From: Croceivirga sp.
GTDB taxonomy: Bacteria > Bacteroidota > Bacteroidia > Flavobacteriales > Flavobacteriaceae
Reading direction: 5' to 3'
Length of the DNA: 64,000 nt
Assembly: GCA_028284285.1 (NCBI GenBank)
Contig: JANQSA010000035.1
Span: 1 to 64,000, forward strand
Numbering within the stretch: the first letter of the stretch is position 1; each line of letters opens with the position of its first letter. Made by a program: the position numbers and the translations under genes. Below the pieces are notes generated by a model. The model was not told the origin of the DNA. It did not search any database and saw only the letters and a list, made by a program, of their open reading frames with translations. This document shows positions 16,545 to 40,596 of this stretch, piece by piece.

Positions 16545-16614
16545 TTTGTAAATATAATCTTACTTTTTTCAGTCAATTGTATTTATGTTGTGAAAGCCAC
16601 CATTTTGGTGGTAG
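16545..16614 (-). promoter_or_regulatory. Promoter region of rfb operon with LytTR-like site
   Basis: On plus the region contains TTTGTAAATATAATCTTAC (16545-16563), almost identical to 25701-25719 upstream of ugd, and then ATGTTGTGAAA (16585-16595). Exactly 21 bp after the GTTGTGA core (16587) is a weaker copy GTGGTAG (16608). Read toward rfbB this gives TTTCACAACAT, about 27 bp, then an AT-rich -7-like box. The same arrangement stands before three other operons of this locus. Binding by the LytTR regulator at 34397-35107 is inferred. Confidence 0.6.
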
Positions 16615-16743
16615 AACCCTGAAATTACATTTATTATTGCAGATTACCACTACTAGCCGGGATTCTTATCTGTTTTTAATAAGATAATACTACTTCGTCA
16701 AAGTGACTTTTTCTTACTTTCGTAGCGTGAATAGCTATACCCT

Positions 16744-17880
16744 ATGGATCAGCAAGTTACGGAAAAACCCTATATCCTGGCCATTGACGATGAGCAATTG
16801 AATCTGGAACTCCTTCAGTTTATTCTGGAAAAAAATGGTTTTGTGTTCCAGGGGACGCAAGATAACAACTCCTTTTTTGAACTCCTGGAACAACGACTCC
16901 CGGATTTGATCCTACTGGATATTATTATGCCGCGGATAGAGGGTTTTGAGCTTTGCGAAAAACTAAAAAGCTACGATCAATATCAGGATATTCCTGTCAT
17001 ATTTTTGACCGGAAAAGTAAATGTGAAAGACAAAATTAAAGGTTTTGAGGTCGGTGGGGTAGATTATGTGACCAAACCTTTTAACGAACAAGAGCTCATC
17101 GCCAGAATTCAAACCCACGTTGAGCTACGAAAGGCAAAGAACCAAATAGAGCAACAGGCGGAGCGTCTAAGGCAATCCAATGCTTTAAAGGATCGAATGT
17201 TTTCTATCATAGGGCATGATCTTCGTTCCCCTTTGAGTGCTGCGAAATTGAAAATGGATTTTATCATGCGGGGTATCCTTGATCCTACATCGGCGGATTT
17301 CAAAAGTAAAACCGTCTATGAACTGTTAAAGACCATGGATGAGGCTTTAAACCTTCTTCAAAACCTCCTCGGGTGGGCGAAGGCAGAAAGTGATCAAATT
17401 CAGGTGATCCCGGAAAACCTCGATCTGCGTGAAATTGTAGAACAGACATTCCGTCTTTTAAAGCTGGGGAGTGAGCACAAAAAAATCACTTTACGCAACA
17501 ACATTCCTGAATCTACCTTTGTTTATGCCGATTTAAATACCACCAAAACCGTTTTACGAAATCTGCTTTCCAATGCCATAAAATTTACGCCTTATCAAGG
17601 GAAAATCCAGGTGAACTTCAAACTGGAAAAAGATCGGGCAATTGTAGAAGTCCAGGACAATGGACAGGGCATACCCCCGGAAGATATCCCCAAAATTTTG
17701 AATCCTAACGAACATTTCAGCAAACTGGGTACCGAAAAAGAACCAGGTACCGGTCTGGGGCTTGTGCTTTGCCAAAATTTTGTCCGCAAAAACGGCGGAA
17801 CACTTAAAATTAGAAGTACCGTAGGAGCGGGTAGTACATTTTACTTTGACCTACCTATGGGAAAAGAGGTTTCGGTTTAG
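16744..17880 (+). CDS. Hybrid response regulator-histidine kinase
   Basis: A 378-residue soluble two-component protein. Receiver domain about residues 9-125 with phosphoacceptor Asp59 ('LILLDIIMP'), conserved Thr and Lys ('FLTGKV', 'VTKPFN'). A short coiled coil (130-150) leads to HisKA with His158 in 'SIIGHDLRSPLSAAK', then HATPase_c with 'NAIKFTP', 'VEVQDNGQGIPPEDI' and 'GTGLGLVLCQNF'. No membrane segment. It is the only plus-strand gene inside the exopolysaccharide locus, transcribed away from rfbB, and its last 4 bp overlap the end of the convergent glycosyltransferase. The signal is unknown; regulation of the locus is plausible. Confidence 0.9.
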   Translation: MDQQVTEKPYILAIDDEQLNLELLQFILEKNGFVFQGTQDNNSFFELLEQRLPDLILLDIIMPRIEGFELCEKLKSYDQYQDIPVIFLTGKVNVKDKIKGFEVGGVDYVTKPFNEQELIARIQTHVELRKAKNQIEQQAERLRQSNALKDRMFSIIGHDLRSPLSAAKLKMDFIMRGILDPTSADFKSKTVYELLKTMDEALNLLQNLLGWAKAESDQIQVIPENLDLREIVEQTFRLLKLGSEHKKITLRNNIPESTFVYADLNTTKTVLRNLLSNAIKFTPYQGKIQVNFKLEKDRAIVEVQDNGQGIPPEDIPKILNPNEHFSKLGTEKEPGTGLGLVLCQNFVRKNGGTLKIRSTVGAGSTFYFDLPMGKEVSV

Positions 17881-19088
17881 GTCAGCACCCCTTCCGTATT
17901 TCCCCCGCGTTTTGCCCTTTCCCACTTTACAGACTGACCGCCTCGTACGTACCGGACAAAGCCCAAAAAGACAGAAAGGTTCATGATAAAGAAGTAGTAC
18001 GGAATAAAAAGTACTTTTAATCGTATCTGTCGATTTTCCAGGAACCATCCGAGCAAGGCCGCTAGATAGAAAAGTACCTGCCCCCAAAATAATACACTAA
18101 AGATTCCAAAGGACCACAGGCCCTCCGCTATTGCCAGGGCCAGGTTAACAGGAAGGAGCAACAGCAACAATAGCGGTGTCAATGTCCAGCGTAACACACG
18201 ATGGGATAGGTATTGAAAGGAAAGTGTACCATATCGGAAAACGTTCAACAGCGGAGCCAAACGTACAACCGATTGAATACCCCCCGCAGAGATACGGATC
18301 TTCCGTTTCAACTCTTCTTTCACATTGGCGGAAGCATGCTCAATGGCATAGGCTTCCGGGTTGTATTGAATGGTATACCCCTTCATAGCGGTTCTCAGGG
18401 AAATCATGAAATCGTCCAATAAGGTGTCGTGCTCAACTTCCTCCCATAATGCTGTTCGTATGGCAAAAAGCTCTCCAGCTGCCCCCACAACCGAATACCA
18501 TTCCGCATCCCATTTTTTGAGTTGGGATTCGTATTTCCAGTACATCCCCTCTCCTGCTCCGGCCGCACTGTCCGATGTTTTGGAGTGGATCCTTTTCTCT
18601 CCCGAAACACAACCTACTTTCGGATCCCGAAACAGTTTGACGATCTCTTGGATGGACTCCCTGCCAAGACTGGTATTGCCATCGGAAAATATTACGATTG
18701 GAGTTTTCACTTGTTGCATTCCACGGTTCATTGCCGCAATCTTCCCGTTTCTGGCGGGTTCATGCAATACGGTAACATCATCATACTTTTTTAATAGTTC
18801 CGGAGTACCATCATCTGAACCATCGGTTACCCAAAGTTGGGTCACTTTTGCTTTGGGGTAGTTCAAACTCCTGGAATTGTTCACTTTTTCTTCCAGATAG
18901 TCTTTTTCATTATACGCTGCTACAAAAAGTGTGACCTCGGGTTGATACTTCTCATTCCCCTGAAATTGCTTTGCAAGACCTAAAACCCTTCGAATCTTTA
19001 TGATGGCGAACAGTAGTATCCCATAGCCCAAATACGAATAAAAAATAATGGCCAATGCCACCCAGAAAAAAATCTTCAATCCTTCCAT
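17877..19088 (-). CDS. Membrane glycosyltransferase family 2
   Basis: A 403-residue family 2 glycosyltransferase. An N-terminal membrane helix (about residues 5-28) precedes the GT-A domain ('QPEVTLFVAAYNEKDYLEEKV', 'VIFSDGNTSL' with the DxD-like position, 'VGAAGELFAIRTALW', 'LLDDFMISL'). Three or four C-terminal helices (about 285-380) end in a basic tail. The architecture fits a processive or membrane-bound transferase like those making beta-linked polysaccharides. Last gene of the ugd-led operon. Confidence 0.88.
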   Translation of the reverse strand: MEGLKIFFWVALAIIFYSYLGYGILLFAIIKIRRVLGLAKQFQGNEKYQPEVTLFVAAYNEKDYLEEKVNNSRSLNYPKAKVTQLWVTDGSDDGTPELLKKYDDVTVLHEPARNGKIAAMNRGMQQVKTPIVIFSDGNTSLGRESIQEIVKLFRDPKVGCVSGEKRIHSKTSDSAAGAGEGMYWKYESQLKKWDAEWYSVVGAAGELFAIRTALWEEVEHDTLLDDFMISLRTAMKGYTIQYNPEAYAIEHASANVKEELKRKIRISAGGIQSVVRLAPLLNVFRYGTLSFQYLSHRVLRWTLTPLLLLLLLPVNLALAIAEGLWSFGIFSVLFWGQVLFYLAALLGWFLENRQIRLKVLFIPYYFFIMNLSVFLGFVRYVRGGQSVKWERAKRGGNTEGVLT

Positions 19089-19098
19089 AACTTCATTT

Positions 19099-19740
19099 TT
19101 AATGTACCGAAAGGGTCTTTTTGTGTGGTACCTGTTCCCATTCTCCGGTATGATGGTTAAATTGTTTTATGACCCGTGCAGGGTTACCTACCGCTACCGA
19201 GAAAGGGGGAATATCTTTGGTTACTACGCTTCCCGCACCCACCTGGCATCTTTTGCCAATAGTCACTCCCGCCAATACCACCGAATTCGCTCCAATATGC
19301 GCTTCCTCTTCTATTACTGTAGGCCGGATATCCAAAGCTTGTTCGCTGGAGTTCCGGGTACCGTCTGAATAACCGTGATTAAATCCTGAAACAAATACAT
19401 GTTGCCCCAAACCGGAACCGTTGCCCATTTTCACGGGGCCAATGATCACACTACCTATCCCCACACGCACCCGGTCTCCCAGGATAACATCGCCTGAACC
19501 ATTGTTTATTGTGCAATAACTTTCAATAGTAGTCCACTTTCCAATCTCAAACTTTTTCCAGGGGAAAACATCAATTCGACTATTTCTTCTAATGATAGCG
19601 CCCTTACCTCTTTTGTGTTTTAGCGGATTTAAAAACCACCTGACCCATAATCTGGGCCTTGGATTTCGCTCTGGGGCGATCATCCGTAAGACCAGCTGTT
19701 TTAACTTTGGATTGGATTGGATTTTGGCAACGAGTCCCAT
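19099..19740 (-). CDS. Left-handed beta-helix acyltransferase
   Basis: A 213-residue hexapeptide-repeat acyltransferase (WcaF/WbbJ-type). The repeats appear as '[33 protein letters not shown]', '[26 protein letters not shown]' and '[19 protein letters not shown]', with '[15 protein letters not shown]' giving the catalytic His loop. It probably acetylates a sugar of the exopolysaccharide in the cytoplasm. Located 10 bp upstream of the glycosyltransferase and 12 bp after the next one, so clearly within the operon. Confidence 0.87.
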
Positions 19741-19752
19741 ACTACTACCTTT

Positions 19753-20958
19753 TTATGCCGAAGCATTTTTAACTCTTAGGATACAGTCATAAATCGCATT
19801 GACGTTGTTCTCCCAACTGTGCGACAAGCCAAAAGCCCTCCTTTTTTCTTCCAATGCTGCAGAGTTTTCTTGTAACGCTTTTTCTATTAAGCGCACATAG
19901 TCTTCGGGGGTTTCCCCCAAATAGGTATGCTCCTTAAAATATTCCATCGCCTTAGTGGAAGAGGCCACTGTAGGTTTTCCCATCGCTAAATATTCATCCA
20001 CCTTTCTGGGGTAATTCCCCATGGTAGCGTCGTTAATCAGTTGTGGGTTAATCGCAACATCAAAACCCTTGATGTAGTTAGGTAATTGCGAGGCCTCCCG
20101 GCTACCCAAGAAATATACATTGTCTATTTCATGGAGTTGGGAGCTACTGAATTGGTCGTCTTGAGGACCTACAAGGACAATACTCCAATCCGGTCGTTCT
20201 GTTGCAATATGTAGTAAAATGTCAATACTCAATCTTCTACTGCTCAAAAAACCAACGTATCCTATGATGGGTTTTGGAATGGATTGTACATCCTTGGGAA
20301 TACCGATTTTTCTCGAGCGATCATTAAAAAGTGATGTATCACAGCCCTGACCTACCATATATGAATGGGCGGTAAACTTCTTCCCATACTCTGTGTACAG
20401 GGTAGAATTGTTCACTACACAATCTGCATTTTGTATCAATTTAGGCTCTAAACGCACCCCGTTTTTTCTCCAGTACGGATTTTTGGTCAGGTAGTCCCGC
20501 ATATAGTAGACATAAAAAGCAGGTTGTAAAAGATCCTTAATGTATTGCCCCAAAAACATGGAACTGTCATTAAAAATGATATACTCCTGAAATCCCAAAC
20601 GCCGGATAGCTGTTTTTATATCCGTACTGAATCTTCGGGCATTCATCTTGTTTAAAAGATCGAAAAGGAAACGGTTCTTGATGAAATTGATGGATTCTGT
20701 CATCGTTTTTGGATATAGCGTCCATAGTGTATCTCTTAATTGTATCAAATCGCTTTCCTGCCCTTTTTTTATTTGTAGTCTTTTTTGGATTTTTTTCGTG
20801 TGCCTTTCCCGATATCGCGATACCCGATCCATAGGAGGATTTGCATATAGCACTCGATTGTTTTTGGCCATTTCAAGGGCAATGTTTTTGCAGTTACTGC
20901 CAATTTCTATATCCCAGGCCTGAATGCCCATTACAATTATGTCCTGTCCTTTGATCAT
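19753..20958 (-). CDS. Glycosyltransferase (GT-B type)
   Basis: A 401-residue glycosyltransferase. The N-terminal half contains 'IIVMGIQAWDIEIGSNCKNIALEMAK' and 'RVLYANPP'. The C-terminal half has the GT-B donor-binding features 'IGYVGFLSSRRLSIDILLHIA', 'IVLVGPQDDQFSSSQL', 'NVYFLGSREASQLPNYIKGFDVAINPQ' and 'PRKVDEYLAMGKPTVASSTKAM'. It resembles the glycosyltransferase group 1 / TuaH-like proteins. Its start overlaps the end of the next gene by 4 bp (ATGA), so the two are translationally coupled. Confidence 0.86.
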   Translation of the reverse strand: MIKGQDIIVMGIQAWDIEIGSNCKNIALEMAKNNRVLYANPPMDRVSRYRERHTKKIQKRLQIKKGQESDLIQLRDTLWTLYPKTMTESINFIKNRFLFDLLNKMNARRFSTDIKTAIRRLGFQEYIIFNDSSMFLGQYIKDLLQPAFYVYYMRDYLTKNPYWRKNGVRLEPKLIQNADCVVNNSTLYTEYGKKFTAHSYMVGQGCDTSLFNDRSRKIGIPKDVQSIPKPIIGYVGFLSSRRLSIDILLHIATERPDWSIVLVGPQDDQFSSSQLHEIDNVYFLGSREASQLPNYIKGFDVAINPQLINDATMGNYPRKVDEYLAMGKPTVASSTKAMEYFKEHTYLGETPEDYVRLIEKALQENSAALEEKRRAFGLSHSWENNVNAIYDCILRVKNASA

Positions 20959-22115
20959 ACCGCCGCGTTTAACTCACTATAAACATCCTCATATAGTTCC
21001 AAAACATTCCGGGCCATGACTTCCCAGGAAAAGTGCTTTGCCCTTTCAATGCCCCTTTCGGCTAATACTTTTGCCAATACTTCATCCTCTACCAAATGTT
21101 GCATTGCCCCTGCAATTTCCTTTGGGTTGAACGGGTCTACAATCAAGGCAGCGTCTTCTCCTGCTACTTCGGGCATGGAGGAAGTATTGGAAGTAATAAC
21201 CGGTACGCCACAAGCCATACCTTCCAGGATGGGGATACCAAAACTCTCTCGTAGTGAGGGATAAAGAAAGATAGAACACTGGCTAATTAGTGCCGGAAGA
21301 ACCGTGTTGGGCACATAGCCGGTCAGGTGGATTTGTGAACGTAACTCCGACGCATGTATGGACTGTAACAGCCGTCTTAGCTCGGACTCGTCATAATCCA
21401 ACATCACCAAACTGTACTTTCCCGGATACACCTTGTTGAATTCGGCAAAAGCCTGCAAAACCCCAATGGTGTTTTTTTTGGGATCGGTATTCCCTAAAAA
21501 GAAAAAAAAATGATCCGGCAAACGGTACTCTTTTTTTATGTTGGCTAAAGTGTCCTGGTCCGTAACCCTTTTAAAATGATTCCCCACCCCATTGTAGATA
21601 GCGGTTAAGCGATCGTCCGTAAATCCGAAATGATCATCGATCCTATCCTTTTCGTAATGGGAAACCGTAATTACCTTTTTGCTCTTTTTGATCACCGGGG
21701 GAACAAAATACCTACGGTACATATTCCCTAATTTTTGATACCAGGAGCCTTCTTTTTTAAAAATGCTGATGCTTTCCAGATAAATGATATCGTGCAGTGT
21801 GGTCACCAGGGGTACTTTACAAAACAACGGGCCTGTATTGCTTGTACAATGCAGTACATCACAACCCTGCTGAAAAGCCGCTTTAGGCAATGCGATTTGC
21901 TCCCATCCGGGATATCCCCATTTTGATTGTAATTCTACCACCTTAAAATTCGGTGCCTCCGGAATACAGGTATTATCTTCATCTGGTTTTACAAAAACGA
22001 CATACTCGTTTTTGCGATCTATTTGTTGTAGATTTTTGATGAGCTCTAAAGCCACCATGTCCATACCATGCTTTTTTTTCCTAAAAAGCCGTTGTCCTTC
22101 TATTCCGATTTTCAT
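20955..22115 (-). CDS. Glycosyltransferase family 4 (group 1)
   Basis: A 386-residue GT-B glycosyltransferase. The frame is open to 22325, but the upstream part overlaps the neighbouring gene; the ATG at 22115 gives the family start 'MKIGIEGQRLFRKKKHGMD'. Landmarks are 'LVTTLHDIIYLES', 'VITVSHYEKDRI', 'FFFLGNTDPKKNTIGVLQAF', 'IHLTGYVPNTVLPALISQC' and the E-x7-E motif in 'RESFGIPILEGMACGVPV'. It sits 17 bp downstream of the membrane glycosyltransferase. Probably adds one sugar to the repeat unit. Confidence 0.92.
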   Translation of the reverse strand: MKIGIEGQRLFRKKKHGMDMVALELIKNLQQIDRKNEYVVFVKPDEDNTCIPEAPNFKVVELQSKWGYPGWEQIALPKAAFQQGCDVLHCTSNTGPLFCKVPLVTTLHDIIYLESISIFKKEGSWYQKLGNMYRRYFVPPVIKKSKKVITVSHYEKDRIDDHFGFTDDRLTAIYNGVGNHFKRVTDQDTLANIKKEYRLPDHFFFFLGNTDPKKNTIGVLQAFAEFNKVYPGKYSLVMLDYDESELRRLLQSIHASELRSQIHLTGYVPNTVLPALISQCSIFLYPSLRESFGIPILEGMACGVPVITSNTSSMPEVAGEDAALIVDPFNPKEIAGAMQHLVEDEVLAKVLAERGIERAKHFSWEVMARNVLELYEDVYSELNAAV

Positions 22116-22132
22116 GTATTTATTTTGAAAAT

Positions 22133-23332
22133 TTAGACTGTCCCGTGTTGGGTATGAATAAATTTTTTGTTTGCCCCTTTTAATTTGAACAGGGATAAAA
22201 ACATAAGCCCGAAAGCCCTGGGTAAGGAGAACATGGCACGTGCTGTTTCCTTGGTATAAAACTTTCTTGGGATAGCCATTACAAATGCTAAAACCACCAG
22301 GAGGAAAGTTACCGACCATATCCAAGGCGATATGAGCAACCCACTTTTTTGAAAAAAGAATTGTTCACCGATATATCCCAGGGTAATGAAAAAGACGAAC
22401 CCCAATAACAATATCCGGGGTGGGGAAATCATTTGGTAGACCTTGTCGACAAAATCAAGGTTACCTTTTACCAACAGTTCCCGAACTCCTGAAACGGCAA
22501 ATCGCTTGAAATAGATAAACTGGGCAGATAACCATCGCTTCCGTTGATTGGCAAAAACCTCAGTTTTCTGAACCTTCTCATCCAACACCAAGGCATCCTC
22601 CAAATACGCTATGGTATTCCTTTCCTTAAGTAGCTTTAGTTCCAATTCCTTATCAAATCCGCCAACCGCATTTACTTTGGCCATAGTGGCCTTGAAAAAG
22701 TGATATTCAAATGCCATCCCGGAACCGATCAGGGCAGAAGAAAGCCCCAAAACGCGATGGCCCTTTCTAAAAATATGGTTGTTAACCTCTTCGCTAATGG
22801 CGTCTAAAATGGCAAAGGGAGTGTTGGTGTTTTTGGCAATTCTATGCCCTTGTACCACTTTATACCCTGTGTTGAAAGCTTCATTGATACGTTCCACAAA
22901 ATCAAACTCCATGATGTTATCCGCATCCAGGATCAAAGCCACATGATAATTATCCCCAATTACCTCCATGGCTTTGTTCAATGCCTTGGATTTGGTACTT
23001 TTTTCAAAACTGACCTCCACTAATTTTACTGGCAGTTTTCTAAGTTTATGCAATGTGATGTCCTTAAAGGAATCTGCAATGATAACCACATCATAGAGCG
23101 CTTCCGGATAGCTTTGTTCCAAAGCCCTACGGGCCACCTCAACAATTACGTTGTCCTCTTTATATCCGGGAATGAGTACGGCAAACCTTCGTTGTTCGTT
23201 AAATATGTTTTCCCGTTTTTTAGGGTTGAAAAGACCCGCCAAAGCAAAGACAAAAACATAGAGGGATGCAATTCCAAAATAGGCCAATAGTACGATTTCC
23301 AGAACATTGACCATAATTTGAATTGCATCCAT
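22133..23332 (-). CDS. Membrane glycosyltransferase family 2 (cellulose-synthase-like)
   Basis: A 399-residue membrane-bound GT2. N-terminal helix about residues 10-33, GT-A domain with 'RFAVLIPGYKEDNVIVEVA', 'VALILDADNIMEFDFVERI' (DAD catalytic motif), 'GSGMAFEYHFFKA' and 'YLEDALVLDE', then 'QRKRWLSAQF' (Q/RxxRW motif of processive transferases). Two C-terminal helices lie near 305-325 and 335-355. The QxxRW motif suggests chain elongation rather than a single addition, but the acceptor is unknown. Second position after uxs in the ugd operon. Confidence 0.9.
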   Translation of the reverse strand: MDAIQIMVNVLEIVLLAYFGIASLYVFVFALAGLFNPKKRENIFNEQRRFAVLIPGYKEDNVIVEVARRALEQSYPEALYDVVIIADSFKDITLHKLRKLPVKLVEVSFEKSTKSKALNKAMEVIGDNYHVALILDADNIMEFDFVERINEAFNTGYKVVQGHRIAKNTNTPFAILDAISEEVNNHIFRKGHRVLGLSSALIGSGMAFEYHFFKATMAKVNAVGGFDKELELKLLKERNTIAYLEDALVLDEKVQKTEVFANQRKRWLSAQFIYFKRFAVSGVRELLVKGNLDFVDKVYQMISPPRILLLGFVFFITLGYIGEQFFFQKSGLLISPWIWSVTFLLVVLAFVMAIPRKFYTKETARAMFSLPRAFGLMFLSLFKLKGANKKFIHTQHGTV

Positions 23333-23356
23333 CGCTATACTTATTTAAAACTTAAC

Positions 23357-24325: not shown

Positions 24326-24334
24326 ATTAAATAA

Positions 24335-25687
24335 TTATGCCGTTATCGTTTTCTTTTCATCATTGTGGATAACTTCCCTACCTATACTGTAGTAATTAAA
24401 CCCTTGTTCGGCCATTTCTTCTGGATCATACACGTTTCTTCCGTCAAAAACAGTCTTTTCGTTCATTAACTTCTCAAGGATTCGGAAATTGGGCATTCTA
24501 AACTCCGACCATTCCGTAACCAAAATCAACGCATCAGCATCAACACATACGTCGTATTGGTCCTTGGCATACTCAATGCCGTTACCTAGTATCCGCTCTG
24601 CTTCATGCATAGCTACCGGGTCATACGCACGAATATTGGCCCCTAAGGCCTTTAATTGTTCTATTATGACCAGGGAGGGCGCTTCCCGCATATCATCGGT
24701 TTTTGGTTTAAAGGCCAGGCCCCACATCCCAAATTGTTTTCCTTTCAGGTTGTCACCAAAATGCTGCTTAATCTTCTCAACCAAAGTGGTTTTTTGCCGA
24801 TAATTAACCGCCTCTACTGCCTTTAATACTTCCAAAGAGTGACCATGTTCATCTGCAGTTCTCACCAAAGCCTGAACATCCTTTGGGAAACAGCTTCCGC
24901 CATATCCCGTTCCCGGATAGATAAACTTGTTGCCTATTCTTGAATCCGAGCCAATTCCTTTTCGAACCAGATCTACGTTAGCACCAACCAATTCGCAAAG
25001 ATTTGCGATATCATTCATAAAACTGATCTTTGTAGCCAGCATAGAATTGGCCGCATACTTTGTCATTTCCGAAGAAAAGATGTCCATGAACAATAACGGG
25101 TGTCCATTCATCAAAAACGGTTTGTACAAGCGACGCATTACCTTTTCAGCCCGTTTACTCTCTATTCCCACAACAATACGGTCAGGTTTTAAAAAGTCGT
25201 CTACAGCACTCCCCTCCTTTAGGAACTCTGGGTTAGAAGCAACGTCAAATGAAATACGGATGCCTCTTTTTGCCAATTCTCCCTCCACCGCAGTCTTGAC
25301 CTTATAGGAGGTCCCTACGGGGACGGTGCTTTTGGTAATGATCACCTTGTAGTCTTCCATATGTTGACCAATTTCCCGGGCAACACCCAGAACATATTTT
25401 AGATCTGCACTACCATCTTCATCAGGAGGTGTTCCCACCGCAATAAATATGGCGTCCGCTTCTTTAATTCCTTTTTCAAGGCTGGTTGTGAAGGAAATCC
25501 TTCCTTTATCTATATTTCGCGCCAACAAGGTATCTAACCCAGGCTCATAAATGGGAACCTCTCCGTTTCGGAGCATTTCCACCTTTTTTTTGTCAATATC
25601 TATACAGACCACGTTTATTCCCGTTTCTGCAAAACAGGTGCCCGTTACCAAGCCCACGTAACCTGTACCAACAACAGCTATGTTCAT
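24335..25687 (-). CDS. ugd: UDP-glucose 6-dehydrogenase
   Basis: A 450-residue NAD-dependent dehydrogenase oxidising UDP-glucose to UDP-glucuronate. It has 'MNIAVVGTGYVGLVTGTCFAE', 'FIAVGTPPDEDGSADL', 'ITKSTVPVGTS', 'NPEFLKEGSAVDDF' and the catalytic Cys in 'GTGYGGSCFPKDV'. Full length. First gene of the operon that continues through uxs and five transferase genes to 17877; its promoter region carries the best LytTR-like repeat pair. Confidence 0.96.
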   Translation of the reverse strand: MNIAVVGTGYVGLVTGTCFAETGINVVCIDIDKKKVEMLRNGEVPIYEPGLDTLLARNIDKGRISFTTSLEKGIKEADAIFIAVGTPPDEDGSADLKYVLGVAREIGQHMEDYKVIITKSTVPVGTSYKVKTAVEGELAKRGIRISFDVASNPEFLKEGSAVDDFLKPDRIVVGIESKRAEKVMRRLYKPFLMNGHPLLFMDIFSSEMTKYAANSMLATKISFMNDIANLCELVGANVDLVRKGIGSDSRIGNKFIYPGTGYGGSCFPKDVQALVRTADEHGHSLEVLKAVEAVNYRQKTTLVEKIKQHFGDNLKGKQFGMWGLAFKPKTDDMREAPSLVIIEQLKALGANIRAYDPVAMHEAERILGNGIEYAKDQYDVCVDADALILVTEWSEFRMPNFRILEKLMNEKTVFDGRNVYDPEEMAEQGFNYYSIGREVIHNDEKKTITA

Positions 25688-25700
25688 TTTTAATTATTTT

Positions 25701-25772
25701 TTTGTAAATATTATCTTACAAATTGAGCTTCCGAAAATAATGTTGTGAAACATATGGGTTACGTTGTAAACC
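25701..25772 (-). promoter_or_regulatory. Promoter region of ugd operon with LytTR-like direct repeats
   Basis: On plus: TTTGTAAATATTATCTTAC (25701-25719), then AATGTTGTGAAA (25739-25750) and a second copy TACGTTGTAAA (25760-25770). The GTTGT cores begin at 25742 and 25763, exactly 21 bp apart. Two 9-bp half-sites with a 12-bp spacer are the known layout of LytTR-family binding sites. Read toward ugd the proximal copy lies about 27 bp before an AT-rich -7-like box. Binding by the local LytTR protein is inferred. Confidence 0.68.
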
Positions 25773-25786
25773 AAGGGATCAAAACA

Positions 25787-31735: not shown

Positions 31736-31737
31736 CC

Positions 31738-32481: not shown

Positions 32482-32483
32482 TC

Positions 32484-33719: not shown

Positions 33720-33721
33720 AC

Positions 33722-34087
33722 CTACTGACGGATTAGTAACTTATCAACGCGGATAAGGAGTTCCTCAGGATTAAAGGGTTTTACCAAATAGTCATCCGCA
33801 CCAAGTCGTAAGCACTCAATACGATCACTACTGCTATCCCTGCAACTAAGCACGATAATTGGGATATCTGAGAATACTCCGGTCTGCCTAACCCGTTTTA
33901 TAAGTTCAAATCCATCCATTACCGGCATTTCCAAATCAGTAATGATCAGATCCGGCATATTGCCTTCGTGTAACCACGAAATTGCGGCAAGTCCATTTTC
34001 AACGGTAATAACATCATACGATTGTCCCAAAAACTGCGCTACCAATTCGCTTAAGGATTGCTTATCGTCAACAACAAGAATTTTCAT
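33722..34087 (-). CDS. Single-domain response regulator (CheY-like)
   Basis: A 121-residue receiver domain with no output. Asp51 ('LIITDLEMPVMDG') is the phosphoacceptor, Asp7/Asp8 the acidic pocket ('ILVVDDKQ'), with Ser in 'IIVLSCRD' and Lys in 'YLVKPFNPEEL'. It is the first gene of the export/assembly operon, 2 bp ahead of the sugar transferase with a pseudo-receiver. A phosphorylation-dependent effect on the transferase or export complex is plausible; the partner is not shown by the sequence. Confidence 0.93.
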   Translation of the reverse strand: MKILVVDDKQSLSELVAQFLGQSYDVITVENGLAAISWLHEGNMPDLIITDLEMPVMDGFELIKRVRQTGVFSDIPIIVLSCRDSSSDRIECLRLGADDYLVKPFNPEELLIRVDKLLIRQ

Positions 34088-34116
34088 AGTTAATAGTTGT
34101 AATATTATAGTTTTTG

Positions 34117-34180
34117 AAAAGTAAGACTATTACTACTTTTACTAAATTGTATGTTGTAAAACCAAGGCAATCTGTTGTAA
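34117..34180 (-). promoter_or_regulatory. Promoter region of export/assembly operon with LytTR-like direct repeats
   Basis: On plus: AAAAGTA (34117-34123; TACTTTT on minus, a Bacteroidetes -7-like box), then 27 bp, then ATGTTGTAAAA (34151-34161) and a second copy CTGTTGTAA (34172-34180). The GTTGTAA cores start at 34153 and 34174, exactly 21 bp apart. The layout matches the ugd promoter and the single site at the H-NOX promoter. It lies 30-93 bp upstream of the response-regulator start codon. Confidence 0.68.
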
Positions 34181-34396
34181 TTACTATCCCGTTGTAGGTT
34201 ATGTTTTTCTCCAGAACAGTTTCTTATCGTCCGGGAGTACTCCTAAACCACTTACACTACTGATTGCTTTTTCCGAATTCCGAGTACGTTTTAAACGCTG
34301 TCCGGACTTAGGATATAATTTGTTTTGGGAAGCGACGCTGCTATTAATTTGGAATGTTCCCTAATTTCTAAAGCCATTTTCCTGATTTTACTTGAC
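34181..34396. other. Intergenic remainder between LytTR gene and export operon
   Basis: Non-coding sequence following the LytTR-like repeats. A further GTTGTAGG at 34191 is not in 21-bp register with the others. I see no hairpin terminator for the upstream LytTR gene, so read-through into the export operon cannot be excluded. No ORF of note. Confidence 0.5.
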
Positions 34397-35107
34397 TTAT
34401 AAAAGGTTTAAGCGTTGCATTAAATCCGGACGGTGCGATCTGCTTATGGGAATTACGCTGCGCTCAATTAAAACGCTATTATCTTGAATATCAATTATCT
34501 TAGTGAGATTTATGATATAAGATCGGTGGATTTGCATGAAACGGGAATCCGGTAATTTCTCCTTGATTTTCCTTAGGGTCGCGTGTACCCTGTAGGTGGT
34601 AGTTATGGTCTTAATCTCTATATAATCCCCTTTAGCCGCTATAATTAGGATCTCTCCCCAATGCAACTTGATCAATCTCTTGTCGATATTGATATACAGG
34701 CTATCTTCCACCATATCTTCTTCAGTCCCAGAATCCCCATTTGCCATCGCCGGCTGGTACGCATTTTTTAGCTTTCCAATTGTTTTTCTAAATCTTTCCG
34801 GATGAATCGGTTTTACCAAATAGTCCACAATACACTCGTATTCATAGGCTTCAATGGCAAATGCCTTATCTGACGTAGTTAATACCACTTTCGGGGGATT
34901 CTTAAGAGTTTGTATGAAATCCATCCCTGTAAGAAAGGGCATTTGGATGTCCAGGAAAATGACATCAACGGAATGCAGATTCAAATACTTAAGGGCTTCA
35001 ACGGCATTGGGAAACTCCCCAACCATTTCAAGCATCGGTGTATTTTCGCAAAATTCCGTAATTATAGCTCTTGCGGAACCTTCATCGTCGATAACTATAC
35101 ATTTCAC
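34397..35107 (-). CDS. LytTR-family response regulator
   Basis: A 236-residue DNA-binding response regulator. Receiver about residues 1-118 with Asp53 ('DVIFLDIQMPFLTGMDF'), Thr in 'VVLTTSDKAF' and Lys99 ('VDYLVKPIHP'). The LytTR DNA-binding domain covers about 136-236 with 'SLYINIDKRLIKLHWGEILIIAAKGDYIEI', 'RVHATLRKIKEKLPDSRFMQIHRSYIINL' and 'IPISRSHRPDL'. It is the last gene of the H-NOX/kinase/FIST/kinase/Hpt run, 1 bp after the Hpt gene, and so is the natural output of that cascade. The LytTR-like repeats at four operons of this locus are its proposed targets. Confidence 0.95.
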   Translation of the reverse strand: MKCIVIDDEGSARAIITEFCENTPMLEMVGEFPNAVEALKYLNLHSVDVIFLDIQMPFLTGMDFIQTLKNPPKVVLTTSDKAFAIEAYEYECIVDYLVKPIHPERFRKTIGKLKNAYQPAMANGDSGTEEDMVEDSLYINIDKRLIKLHWGEILIIAAKGDYIEIKTITTTYRVHATLRKIKEKLPDSRFMQIHRSYIINLTKIIDIQDNSVLIERSVIPISRSHRPDLMQRLNLL

Positions 35108-35108
35108 C

Positions 35109-35432
35109 TTAGGAAATCTTTATAATGAAGTCTTCAACGGTATTAAGAATACCGGAAAACTCTTCCATTAGCGTCGTTTTACCTTTTTTTAGGTCCTCTT
35201 CATACTTTATAGCTGTTTTGTAGCCGTCGGTGAGGCCCAGAATGCCGAACTTATGTTTCATCTTATGCACTACTTTGGCAGATTCTTCCCATGCGCCATT
35301 TTCCAAATGCCGTAGGTAATCTTCTTTTTCCTGCGGAAACTCAGCCTGGATAATTGCGATAAACTTTTTCTCGAATTCGTTGTTACCTCCCGCTATCTCC
35401 TTGATGTATTTTAGATTTGGAACTTCTGCCAT
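35109..35432 (-). CDS. Histidine phosphotransfer (Hpt) protein
   Basis: A 107-residue helical protein with the Hpt signature 'SAKVVHKMKHKFGILGL', phosphorylated His56. The frame is open to 35495 inside the kinase gene; the ATG at 35432 overlaps the kinase stop by 1 bp (TAATG) and gives a normal Hpt size, so I use it. It would carry phosphate from the upstream kinases or a receiver to the LytTR regulator or the CheY-like proteins. It lies between a histidine kinase and the LytTR gene. Confidence 0.9.
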   Translation of the reverse strand: MAEVPNLKYIKEIAGGNNEFEKKFIAIIQAEFPQEKEDYLRHLENGAWEESAKVVHKMKHKFGILGLTDGYKTAIKYEEDLKKGKTTLMEEFSGILNTVEDFIIKIS

Positions 35433-36481
35433 TATTTTTTGAGTTTTATCGTAAAATAAAAAGTGGTGCCTACCCCTTCCTCCGAAGAAAGCCATATATC
35501 ACCTTCATAGTAATTAACGATCTTCTTTACCAGTGCCAGACCGATACCCGTGGCATTAGCGTCATTCTCCAGTTTTTTGAACATATCAAAAATTCCCCGT
35601 TGCAAATGCTTTGGAATTCCTTTTCCATCGTCTGCAATACAGAATAACCAATGCGCTTCCTGTTCCCGTGCTTCCAGGGTGACCAATCCGGTTTTATTGT
35701 TTTCAGTGGCTGTTATTGCATTGGTAATCAAATTCTTGAAAAGCTGTTCCAGCCTGTATTTTCCGGTGTGCAAGGTGGGTAGTGTTCCCTTAATTTTGAT
35801 TTTTACATTATCCGGAACAAAAATGGTACGTTCTATCTCACGCACTAATTTATTCAGATCTACATTCTTTGTTTTTTCCTCTAAAGCATCAATAGTGGCA
35901 TGTTTCAAAATCCCATCAATAAGGCTATCCATTTTGGTCAAGTTTTGGAATATGAGTTCAAAACTACCCTTGCAATTCGCTTTAAAATCCTCACAGCTAT
36001 CGTCAAACAACCATGTCACCAGGGAATGGATATTCCGGATAGGTGATTTTAAATCGTGAGAGACCATATGTGCATAATTGTTCAGCGATTCGTTTTGTTG
36101 TTCCAAATTCTGGAGGAGATGGTCTTTTTCTGCTGTGATCTCTACTATTTTATTGGTCTGATTTTCAATATTTTCGACCAGCTTTTGCGGATCAAAACCC
36201 AATTCTCCCTCCATGGGTTGCGCTCTGTTCTCCATACATGCTACTGCCCTGCTTAATGCTCCTAATATCTTGCGTTGACTCTCTGTTTCTTTATTTAATT
36301 GCTTATTGGCTTCATATAGTTCTTTGGAACTCAATGAGGTGGCCCGTTGAATCATGGCCAACTTGTCATCATAATCGGAATAGGACTTATCCACGGACGA
36401 AAAAAACTGCTCCAACTCAGGACTATGGCTTAGCCCGTCGGGTAAAAACTTTCTTATCTGACGTTTCAACAATGGGTGCAT
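35432..36481 (-). CDS. Soluble histidine kinase associated with FIST sensor
   Basis: A 349-residue kinase with no membrane segment. Residues 1-80 are helical ('LKRQIRKFLPDG', 'YDDKLAMIQRATSLSSKELYEAN'), followed by a coiled coil. HisKA has His142 in 'YAHMVSHDLKSPIRN', and HATPase_c has 'NLITNAITATENN', 'FCIADDGKGIPKHLQ' and 'ATGIGLALVKKIV'. The catalytic half is clearly paralogous to the PAS kinase two genes upstream. Its start lies directly behind the FIST gene stop, so the FIST protein is its probable sensor partner. Confidence 0.92.
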   Translation of the reverse strand: MHPLLKRQIRKFLPDGLSHSPELEQFFSSVDKSYSDYDDKLAMIQRATSLSSKELYEANKQLNKETESQRKILGALSRAVACMENRAQPMEGELGFDPQKLVENIENQTNKIVEITAEKDHLLQNLEQQNESLNNYAHMVSHDLKSPIRNIHSLVTWLFDDSCEDFKANCKGSFELIFQNLTKMDSLIDGILKHATIDALEEKTKNVDLNKLVREIERTIFVPDNVKIKIKGTLPTLHTGKYRLEQLFKNLITNAITATENNKTGLVTLEAREQEAHWLFCIADDGKGIPKHLQRGIFDMFKKLENDANATGIGLALVKKIVNYYEGDIWLSSEEGVGTTFYFTIKLKK

Positions 36482-37609
36482 TTACTCGCTCATTAGAGTT
36501 AACGTCATGGTTTGGTTATGGAGTTGGCATGCATTTTTGCCCGCAAAAGGCGCCATTTCCCCATAGGAATAAAAACCGGTTATTTTAGCTTGATCCCCCA
36601 CTACGTCGTATACTTCTTCAATTTCCTCTTCGGTCCTTTCTCCCAAAACCAGCCGTCGACCTACACAACTTACCAGAATAGCCAGTTCAGGTTTGTCTTT
36701 GCGATTTCGCATGGCAAACTCTGCCGCGTTGGAAGCACCTTCTGCAATATCATTCATTGTAGACATCATCAATTGCACCTTTGCTTTCATGGGAACGTCC
36801 CCGGCCAATATCATGGAATTAGAGGCTTCGTCTATATTCAGAATCGTACGCACCAATGGTTCTACATCTTTACTTTGCTGTACCGTAAGAGGATATAGTA
36901 ATGCGGCCTGGGGTAATTCCCTGGCTTTGTCGCCCAAATAGGTTTTGTAAAGATCCAAAGCTGGACGACCATCTATCTCATACAGCACATTGTCTCTGGA
37001 CCTGGTAATAGTACGCTCCGGGCCAAAAGGCGTCCACCCCCCGTAGTTAGCATAGGAGATCTCCAAACTATCCCCATAAAACCCTATGGCCACCACTTCT
37101 CCCTGTTTGGGTGCTTCATTATAGGAAGCCAGGGTCTTTTCAAAGCGAGTACCATCACCACAAAGACCTCCGGTAATGGAGGCCCTAAAATTGTCCGCCG
37201 CTTCAAGCCCGCCAATAAGGCTACTGCCATTAACAAAGCTTCCATCGGAAACGATAAATACATGTTGTAATCCTTTCTTATCCAATTGGCTGGAAAGCGC
37301 CTTGCCCATTTTCTCAACATTGGGAAAATCGGCTACATTTTCACGTACTACCCGAAAGGTGGCGGATTCAAATTCAATTGCAGTTATCGCGATAGTTTCC
37401 TCGTAGACTCGAGTATCCAGAATTTCACCGGATGTTGAACCAAAAACCAGTTCCCCGTCGGGATATAGCTTTTTTATCTCGTTGTAGATGGCACCGTCTT
37501 CCAATAAAAATCGGTCACCAAAAACCAACACCAAGGGGTTGGTCAGGGGTTCTGACTCCAGAAACTCCCACTTTCCGTTTTTTGATCTTTTTGCCTGATT
37601 GATTTTCAT
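36482..37609 (-). CDS. FIST-domain sensor protein
   Basis: A 375-residue protein with FIST N ('NPLVLVFGDRFLLEDGAIYNEIKKLYP', 'VFGSTSGEILD', 'SLIGGLEAADNFRASITGGLCGDG') and FIST C ('EIDGRPALDLYKTYLGDKA', 'YPLTVQQSKDVEPLVRTIL'). FIST domains are proposed intracellular sensors of small ligands such as amino acids and are usually genetically linked to two-component proteins. There is no signal peptide or membrane helix. It sits between the two kinases of the cascade, 14 bp after the PAS kinase. Confidence 0.9.
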   Translation of the reverse strand: MKINQAKRSKNGKWEFLESEPLTNPLVLVFGDRFLLEDGAIYNEIKKLYPDGELVFGSTSGEILDTRVYEETIAITAIEFESATFRVVRENVADFPNVEKMGKALSSQLDKKGLQHVFIVSDGSFVNGSSLIGGLEAADNFRASITGGLCGDGTRFEKTLASYNEAPKQGEVVAIGFYGDSLEISYANYGGWTPFGPERTITRSRDNVLYEIDGRPALDLYKTYLGDKARELPQAALLYPLTVQQSKDVEPLVRTILNIDEASNSMILAGDVPMKAKVQLMMSTMNDIAEGASNAAEFAMRNRKDKPELAILVSCVGRRLVLGERTEEEIEEVYDVVGDQAKITGFYSYGEMAPFAGKNACQLHNQTMTLTLMSE

Positions 37610-37623
37610 AATTGCAATATTGC

Positions 37624-40023
37624 TTATTTCTTCAGGGTAAAATAAAATGTGCTTCCCACACCAATTTCACTTTCCAGCCATACTTTGCCCTGATAGCGGT
37701 CTATAATCTTTTTTACTATGGACAACCCAATACCTGTTGAGCGCTCTTTATTCCCAATAGATTGAAAAATCTTAAAGATTTTTTCGTGATATTCTTTAGG
37801 AATCCCCACTCCGTTGTCTTTTATGCTAAACTCCCAATGGGTTGGAGTTTCCTTACTGGCAATTTCAACATAACCCTTTGGTTTATCGATATTCACCACC
37901 GCGTTACTTAAAAAGTTCTGAAACAGTTGGTGAATCTTAACTTTATCTGCCTCAATAACCGGAAGTGTATTGACCACTTTTACGGTAACGTGATCGGGGA
38001 TGTAAATGATTTCATTGATCTCACGGATTACCTCATTCACATCTACGGCAGTATTATCCAGGGTGTCGCTATTGACCGTGGAATATTTCAGAATACCGTC
38101 TATTAACTTGTCCATTCCCTCCACTTTTTCCAGCATCAGGTTCAGATTGTATTTTCCTTTTTCTTCCAGGATGTCTTTATAATCTTCATACAACCAGGTT
38201 GCCAAAGCGGTTACACTGCGGAGTGGAGATTTTAAGTCATGGGAAACCACGTGAGCATATTCTTGTAATCCCTGATTACTTTCTTCCAATTCATTTACCA
38301 GTTTCTGTTTTTGGAACTCCAACTCCTTTTGCTTGGTAATATCCAAATGCACGCCAATGGAACCTACTACCTTACCCATTTCATCATAACGAGGGGCTCC
38401 ACTGACAAGCCAATGCCTTTTTTCTCCGGTCTTTACCCTTACTTCTAATTCGTAAGAGTCGGACTGCCTATTTTTCCGCTTTTCAAACTGCTGGTTAACC
38501 TTATCCAGATTTTCCTGATCCAGGTTCATCAATTCCAAAACATTCTCCCCTACTAATTGCTCCTCGGGAATTCCTATCATCTCGGAATACCTGTGATTTG
38601 CTAATAAGATGTTACTTTCGGCATCAATCTCAATTAATCCAAGATTCATGTTGGCAATGATGCTGCTGTATTTTTCTTTCTGTATTTCCAGATTTTTGCG
38701 GTAGTTTTTTCGAAAGGTAATGTCAGTATAGGTCCATAAGTGTCCCATATAAACATCGTCAATGAACAGCGGTATATAATCCCGCTCAAAGGTCCTTCCA
38801 TCCACCAGTTCCAGTTCATCCGAGAGTACTACCTCCTTTTTTTGCAGAATGAATTCTATTCTTTGCACCATCTGGTCCGGTTCTACAAACAGATCTTTGT
38901 ATTTGTCCAGCGATTTTTTGCAATCCACTCCTTTAAGCTTATCGGGCTCAAAAGGTATTTGGAATAGCTCACAAAATTTTTGATTGGTAAGTACCATCTT
39001 CCTGTTCTCATCTTCCAACAACACCCCGGTTTGGAGGTTAGCGATTAGGGTGGCCAGCCTGCCCTCGGAAGTTCTGAGCTTTTCTTCGGAAAGCCTGTCC
39101 TGAGTGATATCTTCGATCATGGCCACCTTATAATCTATTTCTCCCAACTGATTCCTTACGGTGCTCACCGATGTTTTTCCATAGATAAACTGACCATTCT
39201 TTTTATGGAACCTTCGGACAATGGCAAATTTATCCGATCGTCCTTGCCTGTTGTTCTCTATTAGGTTTTTATAAAGATTGATATCCTCAATGGTAGAGAT
39301 ATCATCAATGGACATTTGCTTCAATTCACTTTCCGCGTACCCCAAAAGCTCTACAAAAGCTTTATTGGCTTGAACAATTTTACCGCTGACCACAAGTAAA
39401 ATCCCTAACGAAGAATTTTCTACTATGATGTCTTGCTGTTTCTTTTGGTTTTCGAGCAGCTTTTTTATTTCAACCTCCTTTGTGATATCTCTTATTACTC
39501 CTTGTGCCGCTATTGGGTTTCCGGCTTTATCATAGATAAGGCTCGCATTAATATTTACAAATCTTTCACCAAGGGTTCTGGTAAGGATTTTTGCACTGTA
39601 ATTTTTAAGCACTCCCACCTGTAACAAAGTTTGAAAAGATGCTGCGGTATATCCTATAAAATCCTTGTGAACAAAATTGGAAAGAAAAACTTCCTCCTTG
39701 GTATGATCAAAACCCAGGAACTCTTTGGCGCTGTTGTTCATATTAAGCACCCGGCTTTTTAAGTCCATAACCACGTAAGGATCAATGATGTTAACAAATG
39801 CTCCATCAATCGTGGCATCCTTTTGGTTCAGAAGTGCCTCCAATCTGCCATTGGCCTCTCTGAGGTGTAATGAAGCATCATAGAGCTCCTTGGATTTATC
39901 CTCCAACAAACGTTCCGCGGCCTTTCTTGCTTTCTTCTCCCGCCGTAGTGCCCGCTGTAAAACCTCTACTTCCGAACTATCCTTGCTGGACAACGATAAA
40001 TTTGACTTCTGTTCCTTGCTCAT
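37624..40023 (-). CDS. Multi-PAS histidine kinase, partner of H-NOX
   Basis: A 799-residue soluble kinase. A coiled coil (about 15-70) is followed by four PAS/PAC modules (about 72-190, 195-320, 325-445, 450-575; e.g. 'NPIAAQGVIRDITKEVEIK', 'DYKVAMIEDITQDRL', 'GSIGVHLDITKQKELE'). HisKA has His595 in 'YAHVVSHDLKSPLRS', and HATPase_c has 'NFLSNAVVNIDK', 'IKDNGVGIPKEY' and 'STGIGLSIVKKII'. The gene starts inside the H-NOX gene (47-bp overlap), so the proteins are made together, as H-NOX/kinase pairs usually are. Input to the PAS domains is unknown. Confidence 0.92.
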   Translation of the reverse strand: MSKEQKSNLSLSSKDSSEVEVLQRALRREKKARKAAERLLEDKSKELYDASLHLREANGRLEALLNQKDATIDGAFVNIIDPYVVMDLKSRVLNMNNSAKEFLGFDHTKEEVFLSNFVHKDFIGYTAASFQTLLQVGVLKNYSAKILTRTLGERFVNINASLIYDKAGNPIAAQGVIRDITKEVEIKKLLENQKKQQDIIVENSSLGILLVVSGKIVQANKAFVELLGYAESELKQMSIDDISTIEDINLYKNLIENNRQGRSDKFAIVRRFHKKNGQFIYGKTSVSTVRNQLGEIDYKVAMIEDITQDRLSEEKLRTSEGRLATLIANLQTGVLLEDENRKMVLTNQKFCELFQIPFEPDKLKGVDCKKSLDKYKDLFVEPDQMVQRIEFILQKKEVVLSDELELVDGRTFERDYIPLFIDDVYMGHLWTYTDITFRKNYRKNLEIQKEKYSSIIANMNLGLIEIDAESNILLANHRYSEMIGIPEEQLVGENVLELMNLDQENLDKVNQQFEKRKNRQSDSYELEVRVKTGEKRHWLVSGAPRYDEMGKVVGSIGVHLDITKQKELEFQKQKLVNELEESNQGLQEYAHVVSHDLKSPLRSVTALATWLYEDYKDILEEKGKYNLNLMLEKVEGMDKLIDGILKYSTVNSDTLDNTAVDVNEVIREINEIIYIPDHVTVKVVNTLPVIEADKVKIHQLFQNFLSNAVVNIDKPKGYVEIASKETPTHWEFSIKDNGVGIPKEYHEKIFKIFQSIGNKERSTGIGLSIVKKIIDRYQGKVWLESEIGVGSTFYFTLKK

Positions 40024-40519
40024 TTAACAATTGCATCGCTACTTCTACATTCTTTTCAAAGTGTTCAAACGTTTTCTGTATCAGACCATGTGCCAGCGCA
40101 TATAACCCCCGGGAGGAGCTGTAGATCATGGTAAGCGAATTATCCGTCCGTTCCAGTATTTTAAAATTGGGTAATTCCGCGTCAGGGTAGAGTTTCTTAA
40201 CCTGAACATGAATGTGATCCTCAATAGAGTAGATTAAGTTCAAGGGGCTCTTGTAACTACTTACCACCTCAGGATGGGCTTTGGAGAGTCCCTCAAAAAG
40301 ATACAGCCCAAAAGAATACAACAAATCATTGACCGGGATTTGAGCAGTACTACTTAAGTGAGAAACCAATTGCAGCATTTCGCTAAACTCATAAGTTCCT
40401 ACAGCGGTGTACGCTCCCCCGGAAGTTAAATCGGAAGATTCAATAATGGTGTCTACCGTATCCAGCCCAAACTGGGTCTCTACCATTTCCAAAAATTCCG
40501 TGAAGACAATTCCTTTCAT
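39977..40519 (-). CDS. H-NOX (heme nitric-oxide-binding) sensor protein
   Basis: A 180-residue stand-alone H-NOX domain (HNOB). Proximal heme ligand His104 in 'EDHIHVQVKKLYPDAELPNF', with Tyr seven residues on and the conserved Pro117, matches the spacing in soluble guanylate cyclase. The heme-propionate motif YxSxR is Tyr133-Ser135-Arg137 ('MIYSSSRGLY'). The distal O2-stabilising Tyr of thermophilic anaerobes (five residues after the Arg) is Leu142 here, so I predict NO selectivity. First gene of the signalling operon; its 3' end overlaps the kinase by 47 bp. Known family members modulate a partner kinase when NO binds. Confidence 0.95.
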   Translation of the reverse strand: MKGIVFTEFLEMVETQFGLDTVDTIIESSDLTSGGAYTAVGTYEFSEMLQLVSHLSSTAQIPVNDLLYSFGLYLFEGLSKAHPEVVSSYKSPLNLIYSIEDHIHVQVKKLYPDAELPNFKILERTDNSLTMIYSSSRGLYALAHGLIQKTFEHFEKNVEVAMQLLNEQGTEVKFIVVQQG

Positions 40520-40539
40520 AATACCTCATATTATGAAAT

Positions 40540-40584
40540 AAAAGTAGGAATTGGACTACTTTGTCAAAAAAGAATGTTGTGAAA
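40540..40584 (-). promoter_or_regulatory. Promoter region of H-NOX operon with LytTR-like element
   Basis: On plus: AAAAGTA (40540-40546; TACTTTT on minus), 27 bp, then ATGTTGTGAAA (40574-40584). The element and spacing equal those of the export operon. The second copy is weak: GTTAGG begins at 40596, 20 bp on. It lies 21-65 bp upstream of the H-NOX start codon, in the 77-bp gap after the receiver gene. Suggests feedback control of the cascade by its own LytTR regulator. Confidence 0.58.
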
Positions 40585-40596
40585 TGCCGTTTTTTG

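Follow-up and report, generated by a model that had tools for sequence, protein, structure and literature searches.

The window considered here is a 64,000-nt stretch of DNA from Croceivirga sp. (Flavobacteriaceae; contig JANQSA010000035.1 of assembly GCA_028284285.1, positions 1 to 64,000 of the forward strand), and our subject is a short repeated element located in front of rfbB, ugd, an export operon for polysaccharide and a gene for a predicted H-NOX protein. A preliminary description of this DNA took the element for a LytTR-type binding site and named as its regulator the LytTR protein encoded within the locus (hereafter the local LytTR). As a whole, the data are best explained, and in our judgement probably correctly, by LytTR-type sites at the four promoters whose cognate protein is a second LytTR regulator encoded on contig C11 of the same genome (the C11 LytTR), with the local LytTR acting at another repeat. 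The genes concerned are the following:

15484..16521, minus strand: rfbB (name taken from the preliminary description), dTDP-glucose dehydratase-like (Pfam PF16363, PF01370)
24335..25687, minus strand: ugd, UDP-glucose dehydrogenase family (Pfam PF03721, PF00984, PF03720)
33722..34087, minus strand: stand-alone receiver RRx, first gene of the export operon (Pfam PF00072)
34397..35107, minus strand: local LytTR response regulator, receiver plus LytTR domain (Pfam PF00072, PF04397)
36482..37609, minus strand: FIST-domain protein of the H-NOX operon (Pfam PF08495, PF10442)
39977..40519, minus strand: predicted H-NOX protein with a haem-NO-binding domain (Pfam PF07700)
40597..40995, minus strand: stand-alone receiver RRy, first gene of the H-NOX operon (Pfam PF00072)

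Repeat Sites at the Four Promoters

The word ATGTTGTRA lies on the plus strand at exactly the positions given for it earlier, namely 16585 (rfbB), 25740 (ugd), 34151 (export operon) and 40574 (H-NOX), and the start codons are 53-64 bp away, again as had been described. Each of the four genes is encoded on the minus strand, so that, read in their direction, the element is TTYACAACAT. Two further matches are intragenic (16428, minus strand, in rfbB; 37262, plus strand, in the FIST gene), and the resulting six matches in the window compare with 1.27 expected, a number reached by 0 of 100 shuffles. The sites and their associated promoter boxes are:

16548..16556, minus strand: rfbB -7-like element TATATTTAC, judged by sequence against the TAnnTTTG consensus (PMC9723704)
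16585..16616, minus strand: rfbB tandem site TTCTACCACCA-N10-TTTCACAACAT, kept in G002, G004, G005, G006 and G008
25704..25712, minus strand: ugd -7-like element AATATTTAC, imperfect, judged by sequence
25740..25771, minus strand: ugd tandem site GTTTACAACGT-N10-TTTCACAACAT, kept in G002, G004, G006 and G008
34116..34123, minus strand: export operon -7 element TACTTTTC, judged by sequence
34151..34182, minus strand: export operon tandem site AATTACAACAG-N10-TTTTACAACAT, kept in G002, G004, G005, G006, G008, L062 and L063
40540..40546, minus strand: H-NOX -7 element TACTTTT, judged by sequence
40574..40584, minus strand: H-NOX single half-site TTTCACAACAT, found in 17 of 45 genomes scored

A second copy, in register 21 bp further on, is as clear as had been claimed at ugd (25761-25769, ACGTTGTAA on the plus strand) and at the export operon (34172-34180, CTGTTGTAA); the in-register copies are TTTACAACGT at ugd, ATTACAACAG at the export operon and the variant TTCTACCACCA at rfbB. 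The single mismatch that had been counted in the rfbB copy, which is GTGGTAG on the plus strand, holds for the GTTGT core but not over GTTGTAA, where there are two, and on the gene strand this copy resembles the ACCAC-type distal half-site of other sites of the same type. On sequence grounds, then, the putative sites of the four promoters are TTYAC(A/C)ACAW direct repeats with a 21-bp period, with one half at H-NOX. Within the window alone, the tandem gives two matches at up to 3 mismatches, compared with 0.39 expected, and 7 of 100 shuffles reach two, so that statistics from the window by themselves are too weak to settle the question.

Two observations can be added on the surroundings of these sites. 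A third CTACAACG copy stands at 34190-34197, 17 bp upstream of the export tandem and out of register. In the 12 H-NOX promoters that were laid out, the receiver stop codon lies at a constant distance from the half-site (window 40584-40607), and this constant stretch is perhaps part of an unusual second H-NOX half-site.

Promoter Geometry

Operators of LytTR proteins are described as paired repeats, each about 9-11 nt long and set 11-13 nt apart, with no common consensus (PMC4847170), or as 9-bp repeats 10-13 bp apart (PMC11347149), located near the promoter at a spacing that is critical (PMC4847170, PMC4064291). Two repeats of such length and separation are present at ugd, at the export operon and, in variant form, at rfbB, and one copy is present at H-NOX. 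Downstream, the promoters of the export operon and H-NOX have TACTTTT after exactly 27 nt, as had been noted before for two promoters; at rfbB, TATATTT is one base further, and at ugd an imperfect AATATTT lies at 27. In Flavobacterium psychrophilum the -7 box is TAnnTTTG at -12 to -5 (PMC9723704), and the final G of that consensus is absent from the export, H-NOX and rfbB boxes. By this comparison the four elements qualify as predicted -7 boxes of Flavobacteriaceae sigma-A, imperfectly so at ugd. Because TACTTTT at 27 nt fits the flavobacterial box, the gene-proximal half-site would be placed at about -48 to -40, with the distal partner one 21-bp step further upstream, which is predicted to be an activator-like position.

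The distance itself was evaluated by scanning the whole genome for TTNACAAC-N24..34-TANNTTT. This gave 27 matches; of the 11 gap lengths allowed, exactly 29 nt accounts for 12 and no other for more than 3 (binomial P 1.5e-6; P 8e-4 against the reversed control, with a total of 43 and a rate of 43/11), with 2 of the 12 being the window sites that had suggested the gap in the first place. The repeats thus stand at a set distance upstream of the core promoter. The proposal of a LytTR-type geometry of 21 bp has in this respect held up, as the geometry is also conserved, and LytTR proteins are very likely the right class to read these predicted sites.

Conservation of the Element

In the scan of the own genome at up to 2 mismatches, the tandem with 21-bp spacing has 18 matches, compared with 5 in the reversed control, whereas the off-spacing control of 22 bp has 3 compared with 9; these counts do not bear out an equal spread of the motif over unrelated genes, which had been named beforehand as unfavourable to a regulon. 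A tandem profile, which misses single-copy and ACCAC sites, finds only ugd and the export operon as strong matches in the genome, the next having an E-value of 0.32. In orthologous promoters, the half-sites and the 21-bp step are kept while the spacers have diverged. Counting this genome, the tandem is retained in eight genomes at the export operon, in six at rfbB and in five at ugd, and TTTCACAACA (at least 9 of 10 letters) occurs upstream of H-NOX in the 17 of 45 genomes listed above, this one included. The comparative data speak against chance, and the repeat appears to be a conserved, shared element. The candidate regulon of the preliminary description, covering sugar-nucleotide supply, export and assembly, and the H-NOX cascade, is supported by these shared conserved sites.

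A Second LytTR Regulator and its Co-occurrence with the Sites

Searched with the local LytTR at E 0.001, the genome yields 30 matches, of which some may reflect the receiver domain alone. Among its LytTR proteins is a second, unlinked LytTR response regulator on contig C11 (G000:C11:121081-121836, by Pfam; G000 is this genome), which is 24% identical to the local LytTR. A profile of both LytTR domain types matches known LytTR-domain structures (ComE, E 1e-5; AgrA, E 0.002). Behind the C11 LytTR gene lie two short transcripts, both predicted, and the gene of a TPR/HisKA_2 kinase, and three promoters of this neighbourhood (small RNA 1, small RNA 2 and the kinase) carry TTYACAACAT-type tandems, namely TTCACCAC/TTCACAAC, TTCACAAC twice and TTCACCAC/TTGACAAC, each with a TANNTTT box at the same distance. 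Putative sites of the type in question are thus located at promoters right beside this regulator gene.

Orthologs of the C11 LytTR at 86-96% identity are found in G001-G011 and G021, and also in 13 of 44 named-record genomes (among these L090, the same genome as G010), with a further one at 74% in L073. Tandems lie behind the C11-type gene in 10 of the 12 loci of the genus and G011, and a pattern scan adds one beside the gene in G009 and G011. In other genera many C11-type loci have the same or TACACAACAA tandems, and in some (for example L223 and L231) no tandem was seen by patterns or by eye. The strongest comparison comes from the full architecture, ACMAC-N16-ACAAC-N29-TANNTTT, which has 65 matches (7 in the reversed control) in 12 of 12 genomes with a C11-type LytTR and no match (2 in the control) in 13 of 13 genomes judged at E 1e-60 to be without it. 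A few of the 65 look like chance or coding matches (e.g., G007:C15:109049). Two of the 13, G012 and G015, possess the local-type LytTR and have no tandem match genome-wide.

The H-NOX promoter was scored in genomes whose H-NOX match reaches at least 45% identity. Of those with a C11-type LytTR, 17 of 21 have the site, and of those without, 0 of 24 (Fisher 5e-9, a value that ignores kinship); the table leaves out L086, L100 and L104, which were outside the C11 search, and L090 as a duplicate of G010. Co-occurrence across genomes, uncorrected for kinship, thus suggests that site and C11-type LytTR go together. It also bears on another reading, in which RNA polymerase itself reads the element, as a core promoter or UP-type element. 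A fixed distance to the -7 box would suit such an element, which would have to be reconciled with its rarity in the genome, its 21-bp tandem form and the lack of any match in the relatives that have no C11 LytTR (13 of 13), and we regard this reading as extremely improbable.

The H-NOX Operon and its Own Repeat

The local LytTR belongs to an operon (window 34397-40519) that combines an H-NOX and a FIST protein, two kinases, a small Hpt-like open reading frame (our own label; it has no Pfam match) and the LytTR gene, and that is kept in several genera. According to the neighbourhoods of 19 relatives, the genus has the order receiver, H-NOX, PAS kinase, FIST, kinase, Hpt-like frame and LytTR, which recurs with some genes lost in the family; this cassette is followed by the export operon in G002, G004, G005, G006, G008, L062 and L063. 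The half-site TTTCACAACAT of H-NOX belongs to an internal promoter and not to the start of this operon, where a different repeat is found:

41075..41105, minus strand: direct repeat TTTCATCGAAA/GTTCATCGAAG with a 20-bp period (21 bp in most relatives), upstream of RRy, the proposed site of the local LytTR

An ATTCRTCKACA-type repeat of this kind precedes the operon-starting receiver in 53 of 57 loci, in 51 of them at exactly 21 bp, when scored at P of at most 0.05 by 200 single-letter shuffles per locus; these P values are optimistic, because the consensus was drawn from the same loci. The count, made on loci with a receiver match of at least 50% and leaving out L090 and L094, divides by the C11 type: where it is present, 21 of 23 genomes have the repeat, and where it is lacking or untested (the latter being L100 and L104), 32 of 34 do. 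For the 20-bp pattern, 0.01 chance matches would be expected when 2 mismatches are allowed. None of the polysaccharide promoters has an ATTCRTCKACA-type repeat, and the 3 matches that lie elsewhere compare with 0.90 expected, a number as high as 3 being reached by 4 of 100 shuffles. In the local-type LytTR the C-terminal segments, which in AgrA face the DNA, are closely alike in the 8 orthologs compared, including L068 and L080, two genomes without the C11 type. L080 (Psychroserpens), with no C11-type match at E 1e-50, has a polysaccharide cluster of ugd, uxs, receiver and export genes directly after its local-type LytTR.

It has been proposed, as mentioned above, that the local LytTR binds the four sites and so links the H-NOX relay directly to polysaccharide synthesis. 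The protein is of the same class, its gene adjoins the export promoter, and in L103 an hpt-LytTR pair of the local type is immediately preceded by a TTYACAAC tandem. However, the H-NOX site is found in 0 of 24 genomes that have H-NOX and lack the C11 type, G012 and G015 have the regulator without any tandem, and the start of its own operon carries a different repeat in 53 of 57 loci, while its C-terminal DNA-binding-domain segments remain closely alike. The assignment to the locally encoded regulator is probably wrong, and we consider it unlikely that the local LytTR reads these sites; a relay running from H-NOX to the polysaccharide genes through its own LytTR is not supported by the comparison. 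Autoregulation by the local LytTR, our first reading of L103, lost weight once the upstream repeat and the co-occurrence had been examined. Another arrangement is that both LytTR proteins, or several paralogs, share or overlap in their sites, so that the promoters integrate two pathways. Half-sites do vary (ACAAC or ACCAC; AACAT or AACGT), LytTR sites are said to have no common consensus (PMC4847170), and the genome has its 30 matches to the LytTR query, some perhaps of the receiver only; with no co-occurrence signal for the local LytTR, sharing seems to us quite improbable.

Several points weigh against the C11 LytTR as the regulator of the four promoters. By the criteria used, a partner half-site cannot be recognised at H-NOX, the -7 box of ugd is imperfect, and the site is missing at rfbB of G001, directly behind LytTR. 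Four genomes with a C11-type LytTR (G007, G010, L073 and L094) lack the H-NOX site, and 3 of the 13 matchless genomes are less than 90% complete. Genomes with the C11 type probably form one clade, so that a small number of events may underlie the co-occurrence. Where the C11 type is lacking, the receiver and H-NOX genes are for the most part contiguous, with no space between them for the H-NOX site. Lastly, the L103 tandem would also fit autoregulation by the local type; L103 has no H-NOX match in its 20.7-kb locus, its genome also has the C11 type, and the locus can be read either way. With these points included, we conclude from the comparative data that the H-NOX, export, ugd and rfbB promoters belong to a predicted C11 LytTR regulon, and that the C11 LytTR and not the LytTR of the H-NOX operon is most likely the cognate protein.

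Proposed Mechanism

The scheme takes the sites, their spacing, conservation and co-occurrence as computed, and from these we infer binding, activation, phosphorylation partner, signal and physiological output. The C11 LytTR would be phosphorylated, presumably by the adjoining TPR/HisKA_2 kinase, and in its activated form would occupy the 21-bp repeats as a pair, immediately in front of the core promoter, where it may recruit sigma-A polymerase. In the window, the targets switched on would be rfbB (dTDP-sugar), ugd (UDP-glucuronate synthesis), the export and polymerisation operon and the internal promoter of H-NOX, and outside the window the predicted small RNAs and the kinase of the C11 LytTR itself. 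Weaker candidate targets outside the window are a second TPR kinase and genes of secreted or surface proteins. The LytTR of the H-NOX cascade would act at the ATTCRTCKACA-type repeat before its own operon. As the predicted targets include the internal H-NOX promoter, the H-NOX cascade would therefore be a target alongside the polysaccharide genes.

Predicted Small RNAs

Outside the window, small RNAs with LytTR-type promoters are predicted at G000:C11:121930-122320 (L182:4930-5320) and at G000:C61:194209-194372 on the minus strand. The core of small RNA 1, TTTTCATTTTCATATAGTGTTC, is 22 nt long and occurs exactly in 22 of 149 genomes of the family, with 58 copies and none in the control. Forty of these copies were fetched, and 18 pass a strict ACAAC-gap-TANNTTT test; of these, 17 have a gap of 29 nt and 14 have a partner 21 bp away. 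Among the 22 that do not pass, many show variants that can be seen by eye. In a crude scan for terminators, one was assigned to the first short transcript of G000 but none to the second, whereas several copies of the second type in relatives did receive one. A 97-aa open reading frame lies on the strand opposite to the C11 short-transcript stretch. Across the window, L182, L183, L184 and L103, Rfam at gathering thresholds reports only a tRNA, with nothing for the predicted small RNAs of L182 and L183, and a relaxed scan of the small-RNA stretch gives 11 sub-threshold matches, none below E 0.77. Even with 3 mismatches allowed, nothing in the window matches the complement of the small RNA 1 core, and the complement of the 5′ segment contains an ATG-rich stretch resembling start codons. 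A family of small RNAs not described before would thus seem to be under the control of the C11 LytTR as well.

Other transcripts with the same promoter type were observed. A conserved protein of 33-37 aa (about EIQVY..DF.SG......KLFML) is encoded by a short mRNA in 5 genomes, whose leader has CCCAAA in 4 of the 5 and TCCAAA in the fifth:

G000:C3 about 175,790-176,021 (L184), minus strand: mRNA of the 33-37-aa protein, also in L244, L281, L293 and L295

Longer predicted RNAs with repeated CCAAATC-like elements are found in L298, L294 and L296 (G011:C16). A bolder and rather doubtful idea is that a LytTR/small-RNA regulon common to many Flavobacteriaceae genera took over the H-NOX cascade together with the polysaccharide operons, possibly as a titration circuit of Csr/Rsm type beside polysaccharide genes. 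Its RNA set would comprise several small RNA copies with a near-invariant 5′ segment, RNAs of a second kind that bear CCCAAAT elements, and the mRNA of the 33-37-aa protein with its similar leader element.

Relation to Known Systems and Significance

AgrA with RNAIII and VirR with VR-RNA are cases in which a LytTR regulator drives regulatory RNAs together with surface genes, and the regulator predicted here resembles them in this combination. It differs from them in the several small copies of the predicted RNA with a 22-nt exact core and in its occurrence in Flavobacteriaceae, and protein, RNA and targets are all different. A LytTR operator of paired repeats is thus already known, as is a LytTR protein driving a regulatory RNA in AgrA-RNAIII, and the small-RNA side is the less expected part. 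NosP is a FIST protein, and as in H-NOX/NosP nitric-oxide signalling to biofilm, H-NOX and a FIST-domain protein lie here beside histidine kinases; unlike in those systems, both predicted sensor-type proteins are in one operon, which ends in the Hpt-like frame and LytTR.

The paired repeats near the promoter are shared with the operators of AgrA, VirR, PlnC/D, YpdB and AlgR, while the TTYAC(A/C)ACAW half-site on a Bacteroidetes TAnnTTTG promoter sets the present sites apart from those operators as far as the accessible texts describe them. In Pseudomonas, AlgR likewise is a LytTR regulator acting on exopolysaccharide genes, those of alginate (PMC4064291). Its site, CCGTTCGTC, resembles the local ATTCRTCKACA repeat and not the sites at the polysaccharide promoters, which are of another kind here and stand in an unrelated locus structure. 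Neither a description of TTYACAACAT sites or of the predicted RNA nor the small RNA core sequence was found in the searchable literature, most subscription journals and preprints lying outside its coverage.

To our knowledge, few transcription-factor regulons of marine Flavobacteriaceae have been defined. The present analysis provides a searchable operator, ACMAC-N16-ACAAC-N29-TANNTTT, together with a candidate regulator and a list of candidate targets, exposes predicted small RNAs that have no Rfam match in the loci searched, and corrects the tempting assignment of the sites to the nearest LytTR gene. Because the sites track the C11 LytTR and not the local one, the H-NOX relay appears to be under shared control with the polysaccharide genes, and the target list would tie polysaccharide assembly and the H-NOX/FIST cassette to one switch.

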